NCBI RefSeq assembly: GCF_001592755.1
Contig: NZ_LUKF01000017.1
Span: forward strand, 251,646 to 315,645
Direction of reading: 5' to 3'
DNA from: Bdellovibrio bacteriovorus
GTDB lineage: Bacteria; Bdellovibrionota; Bdellovibrionia; Bdellovibrionales; Bdellovibrionaceae
Length of the DNA stretch: 64,000 nt
Position 1 is the first letter of the stretch. Each line of letters opens with the position of its first letter. Shown piece after piece: positions 28,652 to 34,416 of the stretch. The position numbers and the translations under genes are program-made. The notes under the pieces are model-generated. The model did not search any database and was not told where the DNA came from. It saw only the letters and a program-made list of their open reading frames with translations.

Positions 28652-29806
28652 ATGAAGAATTTGCTTCTAGGATCTCTTTTATTATGTCTTGCGGGGTGTA
28701 CGACCATGGATCGCACCCTTGAGCAATGGAGTTCTAAAAATAACAATAAAAGAGAATACGAAGTTAAAACAGCTTGGGTTCGTCAGACGACCGAAAAAGA
28801 CAACCTAGGCTTTCGTAAAATCAATCGCATGACTCCAGTTCTTGCGGGGGATTTAGTGATTCAAGGAAATGGTCTTGATGGCTTGGTTGCTTATGAAAAA
28901 GAAAGCGGCCAGTTGAAATGGCGTCTTCCGATCCAGAACGGGATTGAGCCTAGCGCTACGATCATTCGCGATCGCCTTTTCGTCGGCGCGAGTGACGGGA
29001 ATTTCTATTCTATTTCTGCCAGTACTGGCGAAATTCAGTGGTCTTTTGCAACGAAGGCCGAAAATCTTTCAGCACCTTTGCTTGAAGAAGGGGTTGTTTA
29101 CTTCTTAGCTGGAAATAACGTTTTTTACGCGTTAGATGCCGCTACCGGAAGACAGATCTGGCTTTACTCTCGCCAGGATACGTCTCAGTTTTCTATCCGT
29201 GGTGGCAGTCAGGCCGCATTTAAGAACGGAACCTTGTATGTCGGATTCTCGGATGGTTCTTTAGTCGCGTTGAACGCGCAAACGGGTGCGGTCGTTTGGG
29301 AGCTTCAATTAAATCGTAACAAACGTTTCCGTGATATCGATGCCACTCCGGTGATTGATGGCAATCAGCTTTATATCGCAGGCTATGATGACAAGCTTTA
29401 CTGTGTGTCCGTTGATAAAGGTGAAGTCTTGTGGCGTATTGATGGCGGTGGTTACAGTGCTGTGACTATGGCCGGAGATAAAATCTTTTACCCTACGACG
29501 AACGGCGAAGTCTGGGCTTTAAAAAAGTCCAACGGCGACAAAGTGTGGACTTATAAATTAAAAGACGGCATCGCTTCTCAGGTAAAGACATATAAAGGAA
29601 CATTGGTGTTTGGAGAATCTCAAGGAAGCCTTCGTTTCTTAGATCCAAATACAGGTTCTGCTTTGGGAAGTATCGAGCCAGGACGTGGTATTCTTTCATC
29701 TCCCCAGGTAGATGAAAAAGCCGGCCGTGTGTATTTCATTTCAGGCGAAGCCAATCTTTTTGCGATTCAAGCAGGTTGGATTAAAACACCTTATTTTAAG
29801 GAGTAA
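28652..29806 (+). CDS. bamB: BamB-like outer-membrane assembly lipoprotein
   Basis: A 384-residue lipoprotein with lipobox LAGC (residues about 13-16). The rest consists of PQQ-type beta-propeller repeats with the A-x-[DN]-x-x-T/S-G-x-x-x-W signature, for instance YEKESGQLKWRLPI, ISASTGEIQWSF, LDAATGRQIWLY and LNAQTGAVVWEL. This matches BamB, the propeller subunit of the BAM complex that inserts outer-membrane barrels. It follows the YfgM-like gene by 12 bases. A dehydrogenase is unlikely because the chain is short and lipidated. Confidence 0.83.
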   Translation: MKNLLLGSLLLCLAGCTTMDRTLEQWSSKNNNKREYEVKTAWVRQTTEKDNLGFRKINRMTPVLAGDLVIQGNGLDGLVAYEKESGQLKWRLPIQNGIEPSATIIRDRLFVGASDGNFYSISASTGEIQWSFATKAENLSAPLLEEGVVYFLAGNNVFYALDAATGRQIWLYSRQDTSQFSIRGGSQAAFKNGTLYVGFSDGSLVALNAQTGAVVWELQLNRNKRFRDIDATPVIDGNQLYIAGYDDKLYCVSVDKGEVLWRIDGGGYSAVTMAGDKIFYPTTNGEVWALKKSNGDKVWTYKLKDGIASQVKTYKGTLVFGESQGSLRFLDPNTGSALGSIEPGRGILSSPQVDEKAGRVYFISGEANLFAIQAGWIKTPYFKE

Positions 29807-30346: not shown

Positions 30347-30370
30347 TAGATACCCTGTGAGGTGTTTTCT

Positions 30371-32710
30371 ATGCGTAAGATCTATACTCTGCTTTTAGCG
30401 TTCCTGATGTTCCAAGGCAGCCTTCATGCGCGCGCGGAATTAACAGCAGAACACAAAGTTCAACTTTCACAGCTGGAATATCTTTTAGCTGTAGATCGTT
30501 TGGATTTCTATTCTGATGGTCTGGCAGACTATTTGATGGACCATGAACAAAAGCTCGCAGCAGAAGCCATTCGTCGCATCGAACCCGAAGATCTTGCAAA
30601 AGAACAATTCAACTCTCGCGATTTAAATAATCCTGATAAATGGAATGAACTTATTCTTTCCGTGTTACATAAAAAATTCCCAGAATTTAAGCACCTCACT
30701 TTGAAAGATATCGAGTGGAATTATAACTTCTTCCGTAAAAAGTTGATGGAAGGCTTTAAGGCAGATCCGATTGCTTTAAAACGTGAAGCTTCAGTTTCAG
30801 ACTTAAACAAAGGTCCTGTTGCTTACAATAAAAGATCCATTCCTAAATTGGATGGCAAAAGCATTTTGTTAGATGCGGAAAGATATATCTCTGAAAAAAC
30901 AACGCGCGCCCTTTTCTGGGATGCGGCTTTAACGGATAAATCTGTTGAATTTCACTTAGGAACTGAGCGTGATTTCCGCCAAAGAATCTCTCAAGAAGAG
31001 CGTGAAGTCGTTGCGGAAGTAAAAACGCGCGCGGCGAATTACAACAAAATCTATCTGGTATTTGATCCACGTTCGAAAGAATATTCTTACGCCTTTACGC
31101 GTATTTCGGGCGATGACCGTGTGAAACACTTGATCGCTCAATTGCGCATCCTGAAATACGATAACAAAGTCGCTTTGAAAGACGATTTTGTGCGCGTGTA
31201 CGGAAATGCCAATGAAGTGCACCGCGATCAAGAAAAACGTTTGTTGGATATGTTTAAAACTCTTCCTAAAGCCGACATGGTTGTAATCGGTCAAAAGTCA
31301 GCCATTGCAAATGTTATTACAATGGCTGGCATGATGTCTCAAGTTCAGCCGAACCCTCAGGAGTCAGTAGGTCCTGCGAAATCACAAATTCAAAAGCTTT
31401 CAGAAAGAGTTAAAGAAACAGGTTCTTACTTTTCTGTGACGACAAAAGCCTCTGTTGTAAAAACGGAGTTTGAGAAAATGACGAATCCAATGGCTTCGAG
31501 TTTTGAAATCTTCAATTCAGAACAACCTAGCCATGATGTTTCAGATGTTCTTTTAGAAACTAAAGACGGTCGTATTGTGCGCTGGAGATTTATCTCTAAC
31601 ATGTGGGGAGATGAAGTAGTTCCCGTAGCTCGCGCGCTTAAAAACTCGGGCCACGACAAAGTCGTTTATATCGGCACAGCCGGTGGAATCATTGGTAAAG
31701 GTCTTAAAGTCGGGGATGTTGTGGCTCCTGCTTACACATACACTCAAGACGGTAAACTCTTGCCTTTAGAAAAGCCGACATATGGAACTGACTTCGTAAA
31801 GATGGGTCAGACTTTAGGTCAAGTGACGTCTCCGTTTGATGAAACTAAGAAATGGTTCGCGAAATGGGAAACTAAAATTGACGTTGTTGAATTAGAGACA
31901 GGTTATTTGAAAGAAAATCTAGGTCCCAAAGTCAGCTTCCAGCCATATCTTCTTATTTCTGACGTGGTTGGTTCTGAACACGAAAGCTTGGCCGTGGCTG
32001 CAGCGGACTCTGGAAAGCGTAAGAACGGTCAATTAAAGCTTTTAGAAAGTTTATTTATCAACAATGGTATCAGATCTCCGATTTCAAACTTTCAAATGAT
32101 CTCGGCAGAATCAGCTGTACAAAGAATGTATCATAAAATTGATACTCTAAGACCGTCTCGCGATGTGACTTCTAAATTGCAACTAACTCAATTGGCTCTT
32201 CGTCAAGGTCTTACGACCGATGCTGAGTTGGAAGCATTAATTAAAAAAGAAGCTTCATTTGATCGTCAGATCCTAATGGATAAGCTAGAAAAATTCAGCG
32301 GCGGCCTAGAGCTTCTTTCTAAAAAGTTCTCTGGAGTTTCTTTCGCGATCGTTGGTGGCGAAGAACTTTTAAATGGAACCTGGAACCCTAAGAAAGCATT
32401 AAAGCTTCAAGTAATGGTTGGCAATACGACGGCAGAAAAAGCCAAGTCTGTATATCAAACAGAGCTTGCGAAGATTCAGTCCGCAATGGGAGCTGAACTG
32501 CAATTGGAACTTGTGAATTATGATGCAGAAAAAACGCGCAATGCGATTTTCTTTAATTCAAATTCACGCAAAGTTCTAGTTCAGCACTACGAAGGCACGA
32601 TTTTAAAGAAATTAGGTTTAACAAAAGAAATCGATAAAAACGGCGGTGTCCGTTTCCGCGAGATCATCGAAACTTCTGGAGGTATGAGATGCGAAGCCAT
32701 CCTTTTGTAA
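30371..32710 (+). CDS. Exported protein with nucleoside-phosphorylase-like domain
   Basis: A 779-residue protein; start ATG at 30371 with GAGGTG 7 bases upstream. The signal peptide ends near ARA. The first about 380 residues are helical and charged with no known match. From about residue 395 to 560 the pattern recalls the PNP/UDP phosphorylase and MTA/SAH nucleosidase superfamily: G435-T-A-G-G439 in VVYIGTAGGI, then KVGDVVAPAYTYTQDG, and E509 in VVELETGY, similar to the family's M-E-x-[AE] base-binding glutamate. The about 200 C-terminal residues are again unknown. The 3' end overlaps the ART-like gene by 22 bases. If active it would cleave or bind a nucleoside outside the cytoplasm; this is inference. 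Confidence 0.65.
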   Translation: MRKIYTLLLAFLMFQGSLHARAELTAEHKVQLSQLEYLLAVDRLDFYSDGLADYLMDHEQKLAAEAIRRIEPEDLAKEQFNSRDLNNPDKWNELILSVLHKKFPEFKHLTLKDIEWNYNFFRKKLMEGFKADPIALKREASVSDLNKGPVAYNKRSIPKLDGKSILLDAERYISEKTTRALFWDAALTDKSVEFHLGTERDFRQRISQEEREVVAEVKTRAANYNKIYLVFDPRSKEYSYAFTRISGDDRVKHLIAQLRILKYDNKVALKDDFVRVYGNANEVHRDQEKRLLDMFKTLPKADMVVIGQKSAIANVITMAGMMSQVQPNPQESVGPAKSQIQKLSERVKETGSYFSVTTKASVVKTEFEKMTNPMASSFEIFNSEQPSHDVSDVLLETKDGRIVRWRFISNMWGDEVVPVARALKNSGHDKVVYIGTAGGIIGKGLKVGDVVAPAYTYTQDGKLLPLEKPTYGTDFVKMGQTLGQVTSPFDETKKWFAKWETKIDVVELETGYLKENLGPKVSFQPYLLISDVVGSEHESLAVAAADSGKRKNGQLKLLESLFINNGIRSPISNFQMISAESAVQRMYHKIDTLRPSRDVTSKLQLTQLALRQGLTTDAELEALIKKEASFDRQILMDKLEKFSGGLELLSKKFSGVSFAIVGGEELLNGTWNPKKALKLQVMVGNTTAEKAKSVYQTELAKIQSAMGAELQLELVNYDAEKTRNAIFFNSNSRKVLVQHYEGTILKKLGLTKEIDKNGGVRFREIIETSGGMRCEAILL

Positions 32711-34416
32711 AAAGAACTCTTCCTTGTTTGGCAGTGATTGTTGCCTTGAGTTCGACGTCTCCGGCTTATGCGGCGAACGACGGTTTCTTTGGGAAACTTA
32801 AGAGTGCGGCGACTCACTTTATCAACGCGGCAACAAAACCAGGTGGTCCGACTAAAGTCGTTCAGCCAGAAAATAAGCAAGACGGAACGGCGGCACAGAA
32901 AAATGCCTTTATGTCGATGGATGCTTCTTTAGATTCTGTTGCAGAAGGAAAGCAGCCGTTTTCTTTTGAAAAAGACTTTGTTGAAAAAGCAATTGGTGCT
33001 ACGAACCAGAAAGCCTGGAACTCTTCAGATCTTCGTCGCAGTGCCACGGGTCTTTTAGAAAAAGTAGAATCTGTCTCTACAGCGACACATACTGAAATCG
33101 TTCCTGAATATACTAAAGACGGTCTGGTCTTCCGTTTGCGCTATGACGAAACAGCTTTGCAAAACAAAGAGACTTTGATTCGCGATGTCGCTTTGATCAC
33201 GGCCTTAACTAAAAATGGTGGCTACGGAATCTTTGAACATGTTTCTTTGGGCGTGTCTGTTTCAGCAGAAATTGAATCACCGCACTCTATTGCTGAGCTT
33301 CTGACAAACGCGCGCGAAGGAAGTCCGACGGCGCAAGCTCGTCTGAATCTTCTATTCTCTAAAATATTAGGACAAATGCGTGTATCACAAACGATGTTAG
33401 CGCAAATGGGTCTTACTCAGGATGGTCTGTTAAATCAAGCCAATGAATTGAAAGACCGCCAAGCCGCTCTAGATGAGCTGGCCGCTAAACATCAAAGAAA
33501 ACAACAAAAGGCTTTGGATGCTTGGAAGTCCGATACAGGTGCCTTAGATAAGCTTGAGGCGATGAACGAGAAACTGGATGATTTGATTTTAAAGAACGAT
33601 CGTAAAGGCGTTCGTAAGATGCTGGAAGCCTATCTTCCATGGGCTGTTATGGAGCCGGTAGAAGCGAATACTTGGAAAATCTGGCTTGAAGCAATTGAAA
33701 ACCCGAATCACGAAAAGTCTGTTATCGCGTTCCGCGGTTTAAAATACGATACGGATAAAATCCAACGCAAACAAACAGCTCAAGGTGAAGTGTTTGGATT
33801 TATGTCGACTGTTTTAACTAAAAACCAGGGAAGCTACACGCGCCGCTTGCGTTCGCTATCAACGAATCGCGAGAAAAACGGTGATGTTTCTTTCGTTAGA
33901 TTGGCTCAAGAAAAGTCAACGGACATTCAATCGATCCGTATTACTGATCAAATGACTGCACATGCAAGAGATCCAAAGGCATCTAGCTTTATCTCTTTCA
34001 CATATGATCCCAACGTTGCTTATCGTTTCATGGGGAACGACGTAACAAAGCAAATAAAAGGGGAGAGTGTAACAGTTCCTTACGGTGGAATCTTGGTGGT
34101 GAAAATGGATGCTCGCCGTATGATTCCGAATGTTCCTTCCATGTACGGTAACGAGATCGAACTTTTAGCTCCACTTATCGTTTTCCCGGATGAGGTTGTA
34201 AAATACAAGGAAGGTTCATTCAAATCGGGCGAATACGCTACGTTTGTTAAAGAAATCTCTGAAAAAACCGGCGTGAATTTTGCTCAATGGAATACGGCAA
34301 AAGATGGTAACGATGAAAGTCTTAAACAACGTTACAACCGTGATGGTCATGAGTTCTTAAAACAAATGATCGATACGAAGTACTTAAAAGCCATGTCTTG
34401 TTCGAAAGTCTTTTAA
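32689..34416 (+). CDS. Exported protein with ADP-ribosyltransferase-like C-terminal domain
   Basis: A 575-residue protein with signal peptide 1-28 (ending AYA). The middle (about 210-300) is helical and coiled-coil-like (LNQANELKDRQAALDELAAK). The C-terminal part fits the R-S-E plan of arginine/asparagine-type ADP-ribosyltransferases: R349 in VIAFRGLKY, S436 within SSFISFTYDPNVAYRF, and E489-x-E491 in YGNEIELLAPLIVF. Such enzymes transfer ADP-ribose from NAD to a target. Spacing and the hydrophobic strand after E-x-E agree, but the STS core is degenerate. GGAGG precedes the ATG, and the gene overlaps the phosphorylase-like gene by 22 bases, so the two are made together. Confidence 0.6.
   Translation: MRSHPFVKRTLPCLAVIVALSSTSPAYAANDGFFGKLKSAATHFINAATKPGGPTKVVQPENKQDGTAAQKNAFMSMDASLDSVAEGKQPFSFEKDFVEKAIGATNQKAWNSSDLRRSATGLLEKVESVSTATHTEIVPEYTKDGLVFRLRYDETALQNKETLIRDVALITALTKNGGYGIFEHVSLGVSVSAEIESPHSIAELLTNAREGSPTAQARLNLLFSKILGQMRVSQTMLAQMGLTQDGLLNQANELKDRQAALDELAAKHQRKQQKALDAWKSDTGALDKLEAMNEKLDDLILKNDRKGVRKMLEAYLPWAVMEPVEANTWKIWLEAIENPNHEKSVIAFRGLKYDTDKIQRKQTAQGEVFGFMSTVLTKNQGSYTRRLRSLSTNREKNGDVSFVRLAQEKSTDIQSIRITDQMTAHARDPKASSFISFTYDPNVAYRFMGNDVTKQIKGESVTVPYGGILVVKMDARRMIPNVPSMYGNEIELLAPLIVFPDEVVKYKEGSFKSGEYATFVKEISEKTGVNFAQWNTAKDGNDESLKQRYNRDGHEFLKQMIDTKYLKAMSCSKVF

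Follow-up and report, generated by a model that had tools for sequence, protein, structure and literature searches.

The 64,000-nucleotide (nt) window analyzed here, a stretch of the Bdellovibrio bacteriovorus contig NZ_LUKF01000017.1 (assembly GCF_001592755.1, positions 251,646 to 315,645 of the forward strand), contains a pair of genes encoding an exported protein with the fold of the PNP/MTAN superfamily (protein 1) and an exported protein resembling ADP-ribosyltransferases (ARTs; protein 2). As an earlier note on this DNA had described, the two open reading frames (ORFs) overlap by 22 nt and both products carry signal peptides (Table 1). The signal peptides are clearly of the Sec type (MRKIYTLLLAFLMFQGSLHARA-E in protein 1 and ...LPCLAVIVALSSTSPAYA-A in protein 2). 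An in-frame GTG was found at 30362. A sequence resembling a Shine-Dalgarno motif precedes the start codon of ORF 2, and its position inside ORF 1 fits the expectation for translational coupling.

Table 1. Features of the gene pair, in positions of the window (aa, amino acids)
Feature	Position	Strand	Remarks
Exported PNP/MTAN-fold protein gene (ORF 1, protein 1)	30371..32710	+	779 aa; ATG start
GTAGG codons (protein 1 residues 435-439), PNP superfamily substrate-loop motif	31673..31687	+	
E507-L508-E509 codons (protein 1), PNP superfamily E-x-E motif	31889..31897	+	
S530-D531 codons (protein 1), PNP superfamily catalytic S-D motif	31958..31963	+	
GGAGG, Shine-Dalgarno-like, inside ORF 1, 6 nt 5' of ORF 2 start codon	32678..32682	+	read from sequence
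Overlap of ORF 1 and ORF 2	32689..32710	+	22 nt; exactly conserved within genus
Exported ART-like protein gene (ORF 2, protein 2)	32689..34416	+	575 aa
C774 codon, sole cysteine of exported PNP-like protein, 6th residue from end	32690..32692	+	
R349 codon (protein 2), ART arginine, strand 344-352	33733..33735	+	
S436 codon (protein 2), ART serine, strand 434-438	33994..33996	+	
E489-I490-E491 codons (protein 2), ART E-x-E just before strand 492-495	34153..34161	+	
C571-S-K-V-F575 codons, C-terminal tag, sole cysteine of mature ART-like protein	34399..34413	+	

Protein 1 is composed of a signal peptide (residues 1-22), a helical N-terminal region (~26-300), a nucleosidase core (~300-570) and a C-terminal helical region, followed by a flexible tail. 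The motifs GTAGG, KVGDVVAP (446-453) and ELETGY (507-512), from which the earlier note had derived a phosphorylase or nucleosidase, are all present. In a Pfam scan the window protein scored 18.6 bits with PNP_UDP_1, below the cut-off of 25.1, but 28 of 34 homologues matched this family (best E 9.7e-9). The structural model, built from 34 homologues, is confident (predicted local distance difference test, pLDDT, 85.6; predicted template modelling score, pTM, 0.85), and a Foldseek search of the Protein Data Bank (PDB) returned 320 chains at E ≤ 0.001, with the Arabidopsis MTAN 2h8g at the top (E 2.3e-6, probability 1.00). AMP nucleosidases, PNPs and uridine phosphorylases were among the further matches, and the periplasmic Aeromonas nucleosidase 5b7q held rank 40. 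None of the 34 homologues differs at G435, T436, G438, E491, E507, E509, S530 or D531, and the corresponding G-x-x-G, V-D-M-E and S/A/T-D motifs occur in the genome's own four ordinary PNP-family members (including L269-L271); among the five PNP-family genes of the genome, that of protein 1 is the sole one of its type. On sequence, model and PDB fold match, protein 1 is assigned to the PNP/MTAN superfamily.

The label 'phosphorylase' is probably too specific. E. coli PNP binds phosphate through an arginine, Arg87, three residues before the G-S/T loop residue, and at the position that would correspond to it all 34 homologues of protein 1 have a tyrosine (Y433). Because of this residue, and because the best fold matches are hydrolases, protein 1 is probably a nucleosidase rather than a phosphorylase. 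It resembles the MTA/SAH nucleosidase (Pfs/MtnN; PF01048) in the alpha/beta core, the G-T/S-x-G loop and the G-D-x-V, E-x-E and S-D motifs, but differs from it in its length (779 against ~230 aa), in the long helical regions flanking the core, in an insertion near residues 320-390, in being exported and linked or fused to an ART, and in falling below the Pfam cut-off. The exported Aeromonas enzyme is likewise a periplasmic member of the superfamily, but a simple MTAN of one domain that lacks both the ART partner and the tail. PNP-superfamily proteins that are exported, 400-450 aa long and not accompanied by an ART were also seen elsewhere in the phylum (L112:4493-5707, L115:5656-6963 and L117:5201-6550).

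In protein 2, a signal peptide (1-28) is followed by an alpha/beta N-domain (~115-230), long helices (244-337), an ART domain (~340-510) with R349, S432/S436, N481/S484 and E489-x-E491, and a flexible tail. R349, S436 and the E-x-E pair, which had been likened to the triad of R-S-E ARTs, are present as described and show no loss in close homologues: together with S432, N481, S484 and C571 they are invariant in all 22 homologues from the genus and family. Among 35 wider homologues R349, S436, E489 and E491 are kept in 33-34, the exceptions being R349S (L187), a glutamine at E489 (L186) and a broken end (L185); Q-x-E is a variation known in the ART superfamily. The strict pattern R...S-x-[ST]...E-x-E, which also matches T4 ModA, was found in protein 2 alone among 739 sampled proteins of the genome and in none of 20,000 shuffles of its sequence. 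The motifs quoted for the two proteins are thus, as sequence patterns, far from chance.

The model of protein 2 (pLDDT 81.3, pTM 0.80) places these residues in the arrangement of R-S-E ARTs. According to DSSP, R349 lies on the first strand, S436 on a strand that leads into a helix (441-446), and E489-x-E491 ahead of a late strand. An hhalign comparison of the ART domain profile (residues 330-515) with a profile of PF01129 ARTs collected from the same phylum gave a probability of 65% (P 6.2e-5, score 35.5) and paired S436 with the S-T-S motif and E489-x-E491 with E-x-E; 13 unrelated family profiles scored at most 17.6 and 250 single proteins at most 24.0. The spacing of N481 and S484 ahead of E-x-E is that of PF01129 proteins. 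Comparison with a profile of T4 ModA/ModB alone did not rise above the controls, although the S motif was aligned correctly. Scans against PHROGs and PADLOC gave nothing useful for protein 2, and weak ELMO_ARM, IMD and coiled-coil matches were set aside, as they fall on the helical regions. Given the motif order, the invariant residues, the strand positions and the calibrated profile match, protein 2 very probably carries an R-S-E ADP-ribosyltransferase domain.

Protein 2 shares with PF01129 mono-ADP-ribosyltransferases, of which T4 ModA is an example, the order R, S-x-[ST], E-x-E and, in a local profile alignment, the register of S, N/S and E-x-E. It is unlike them in its longer distance from R349 to S436 (87 residues, compared with T4 ModA), in the conserved Q-G-x-Y-T-R-R-L-R-S-L and H425 of its family, in its extra N-domain and in lying below Pfam detection. 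This N-domain gave scattered weak fold matches in BFVD, a collection of viral models, to IrrE/SprT/M34-like zincins, and the Bacteriovoracia homologues have E-E-x-x-H-L-x-Q-I here; it is perhaps a degenerate zincin domain.

Both genes are found in 13 of 24 genomes of the genus. In 12 of these 13 they lie side by side and share exactly 22 nt, while the identity of protein 1 falls to as low as 38%; a further genus of the family also keeps the overlap if the ATG at L161:5007 is taken as the start. The named relatives of the pair are Bdellovibrio sp., Bdellovibrionaceae, Bacteriovorax and Halobacteriovorax; the type strain HD100 was not recognised among the carriers. A single ORF of ~1280 aa, with the PNP module first and the ART module last, takes the place of the pair in Bacteriovoracia, the sister class, and in other families of the phylum (17 loci in one set and 19 in the named collection, the two sets overlapping). 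Certain genomes have the fused gene and an additional ART gene, and in one Bacteriovoracaceae genus the two lipoproteins are encoded separately, the ART gene being present once or twice and lying upstream. Signal peptides or lipoboxes were present throughout the homologues, the Bacteriovorax and Bacteriovoracia forms being lipoproteins. In a tree of the ART part, the Bdellovibrionaceae pair stands on one side of a branch (support 99/96) and the Bacteriovoracia forms, fused as well as separate, on the other, and a single change suffices for the fused state as well as for the separate Bacteriovoracia state, suggesting vertical descent of the pair within the phylum. Because the two modules are fused into one polypeptide in the sister class and their linkage is conserved, they very probably act together as one functional unit. 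The coupled, exported system proposed in the earlier note is well in line with these results.

Each mature protein has a single cysteine, located six residues from the end in protein 1 (C774) and five from the end in protein 2 (C571), within tails that have a pLDDT below 50 in both models. The ART-like protein ends in C-S-K-V-F; the PNP-like protein ends in C-E-A-I-L-L in the window (32690-32707) and in C-S-S-V-F-M or C-E-A-L-F-L in other homologues. Part of the conservation in the PNP-like protein is explained by the overlapping ATG, which forces a TGx codon. As the whole reason the overlap was ruled out, since the cysteine is also kept where there is none (G003, L160 and most fused forms). 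In the majority of fused proteins the PNP module closes with an internal K-x-C/F-C-S-L-A-Y-F, which argues that the carboxyl end need not always be free.

Within the predator's genome we looked for ORFs with a minimum length of 110 aa whose product ends in C-[S etc.]-x-[VIM]-F with at most two extra residues. Four ORFs, all exported, were found, namely the ART, a C26 glutamine-hydrolase-like enzyme (C17:20071-21105; L193:71-1105), and 357- and 396-aa proteins of one family (C1:127068-128141, L130, and C12, L355:331-1521). Orthologues of the exported C26 enzyme end in R/S-C-[SAG]-[KRQ]-[IVL]-[FL] in nearly all genomes of the genus, whereas C26-related sequences without a signal peptide are without this ending. 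The statistic of four matches is small, and the conservation in the C26 orthologues together with the contrast between exported and non-exported forms is the stronger evidence. As judged from these endings, a cysteine motif of the type C-S-x-[VI]-F, shared by unrelated exported proteins, is a candidate C-terminal tag, which might serve for sorting, for anchoring or for a disulfide between subunits. A mark of all exported proteins was ruled out, as few carry it in the ~800 kb sampled.

Several related proteins and neighbours were observed alongside the pair. Divergent exported ART paralogues of 630-684 aa (L040:4807-10097, L042:6742-10043 and L043:8385-11698) are partnered not by a PNP-like protein but by an exported protein of ~441-448 aa without a Pfam match, which in one genome is flanked by ART paralogues on both sides; the 441-aa partner in G011, G021 and G022 ends in A-C-S-K-V-F-Q (L043:10373-11698). 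At L044:5982-8251 the gene after an ART paralogue encodes an exported protein weakly similar to M35 zinc endopeptidases, and at L045 the neighbour of an ART paralogue has a HEYGH motif. A Bacteriovoracaceae locus contains five tandem genes for ART-like lipoproteins, all ending in C-x-D-[IL]-[IL]-x-L-F (L119:5246-13468). Also in Bacteriovoracaceae, the PNP gene has as its neighbour a lipoprotein that is exported and belongs to the IucA/IucC (siderophore synthetase) family, whose members are normally cytosolic; this lipoprotein ends in C-L-G-F-I-K-A-F-F-R (L098:4090-5778, with equivalents in L102 and L124). Of 291 genomes examined from the phylum, 29 encode ARTs above the Pfam cut-off for PF01129 (L243-L267); none of 14 control genomes does.

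In line with the earlier note, which knew of no system with this layout, we found none described in the literature, which here comprised open-licence papers; neither the pair, a PNP-ART fusion nor the cysteine tag was described there, nor was an NAD- or nucleotide-using toxin of cytosolic type in Bdellovibrio-like predators. Each enzyme superfamily is known, and it is the exported, coupled or fused combination with a cysteine tail that appears to be new. Bdellovibrio secretes many degradative enzymes via Sec towards the contents of its prey (PMC2797640). The interpretation that we favour, if by a small margin over doubt, is that the pair constitutes an exported two-enzyme system of predatory Bdellovibrionota that acts on prey nucleotides or nicotinamide adenine dinucleotide (NAD), the ART possibly also on prey proteins. 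NAD and nucleotides are not normal metabolites of the periplasm. Prey substrates would be likely because these compounds are cytosolic while both proteins leave the predator cytoplasm. Protein 1 would be an N-glycosidase of the PNP/MTAN fold embedded in lineage-specific helical regions, and protein 2 an R-S-E-type ADP-ribosyltransferase, or NAD glycohydrolase, behind its N-domain and long helices. Translational coupling would yield equal amounts of the two, Sec would carry both over the inner membrane (in Bacteriovorax as lipoproteins), and they would work as one complex, since the same modules form one polypeptide in Bacteriovoracia. Prey metabolites would be met in or through the bdelloplast, where the ART may modify prey proteins at the expense of prey NAD or just destroy this NAD, and the nucleosidase may strip bases from prey nucleotides, from free nucleosides, or from NAD-derived or other products of the ART reaction, in whichever order these reactions would occur. 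A tentative and rather doubtful extension is that the pair belongs to a cohort of tagged predator proteins and that an unknown post-Sec machine delivers the combined ART and N-glycosidase into the prey, halting its metabolism.

A number of observations weigh against this interpretation or parts of it. The hhalign match of protein 2 spans 48 columns and does not include R349, and Pfam and NCBIfam scans of the protein returned no ART match. The ART fold, for which the earlier note had proposed a structure search as for the PNP fold, was neither refuted nor positively confirmed by the whole-chain search, as Foldseek gave no match of the whole model at E ≤ 0.001 in PDB or BFVD, the weak matches being 2o0q (probability 0.20) and Arr 2hw2 (E 3.5). 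R, S and E-x-E might accordingly be conserved for another reason in a domain of new fold, a reading that we consider quite unlikely in view of the collinear triad on the correct strands, the PF01129-like N481/S484 spacing, the invariance and the calibrated profile match. With regard to linkage, G003 has both genes on different contigs, G009 has ART paralogues only, and 10 genomes of the same genus are without the pair, so predation does not need it and it is accessory rather than a core predation factor. In addition, we know of no route by which these proteins would pass from the predator periplasm to the prey cytoplasm.

Under a purely nutritional role, the nucleosidase would cleave prey nucleosides or nucleotides in the bdelloplast for uptake of the bases and the ART would serve as an NAD hydrolase feeding the same pathway. 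The fold of protein 1, closest to nucleosidases including the periplasmic 5b7q, agrees with this, as do the predator nucleases upregulated late in predation and the repression of purine synthesis while prey nucleotides are taken up (PMC12546842). However, the passage of PMC10482364 that cites Rittenberg and Langley (1975) reports that Bdellovibrio uses prey nucleoside monophosphates intact, which would make an exported nucleosidase wasteful; conservation of the triad between sequences that have diverged by more than 70% points to a transfer onto some target more than to mere scavenging, and multiplication of the ART genes has occurred independently of PNP. We therefore regard salvage alone as unlikely. 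The proteins could instead be retained by the predator, in its periplasm or on its outer membrane, and there modify or regulate parts of its own envelope or small molecules. On one side of the pair the neighbouring genes are conserved and encode a Glu/Leu dehydrogenase-like protein, a tetratricopeptide repeat (TPR) protein, a BamB-like lipoprotein (28652-29806) and a small lipoprotein. The Bacteriovoracia lipoproteins, being anchored to the predator, would fit a role in its envelope, and so would the housekeeping envelope genes beside the pair, such as that of the BamB-like lipoprotein; yet both catalytic cores would be without substrates in the periplasm unless these came from prey or lysed cells, and such a role seems improbable to us. 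PNP-superfamily and ART domains recur as effectors in bacterial conflict systems, where surveys list them separately (PMC7159879), and the pair could be directed against phages or rival predators in a similar manner. Those domains, however, are cytosolic and coupled to NTPases or receptors, whereas both proteins here are exported, no NTPase, receptor or immunity gene adjoins them, PADLOC gave no match at E ≤ 1, and the position of the pair is conserved among housekeeping genes. A defence island was therefore dropped, and a defensive or competitive role appears very unlikely.

Wall enzymes and proteases account for most of the present explanation of how Bdellovibrio-like bacteria kill and tame prey from the periplasm. 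With a nucleosidase-ART unit that is exported and conserved, one polypeptide in one class of predators and two proteins in another, there would be a concrete candidate for these processes. Through the C-terminal cysteine tag that other exported enzymes have in common with it, the sorting of predator proteins beyond Sec would become directly testable.

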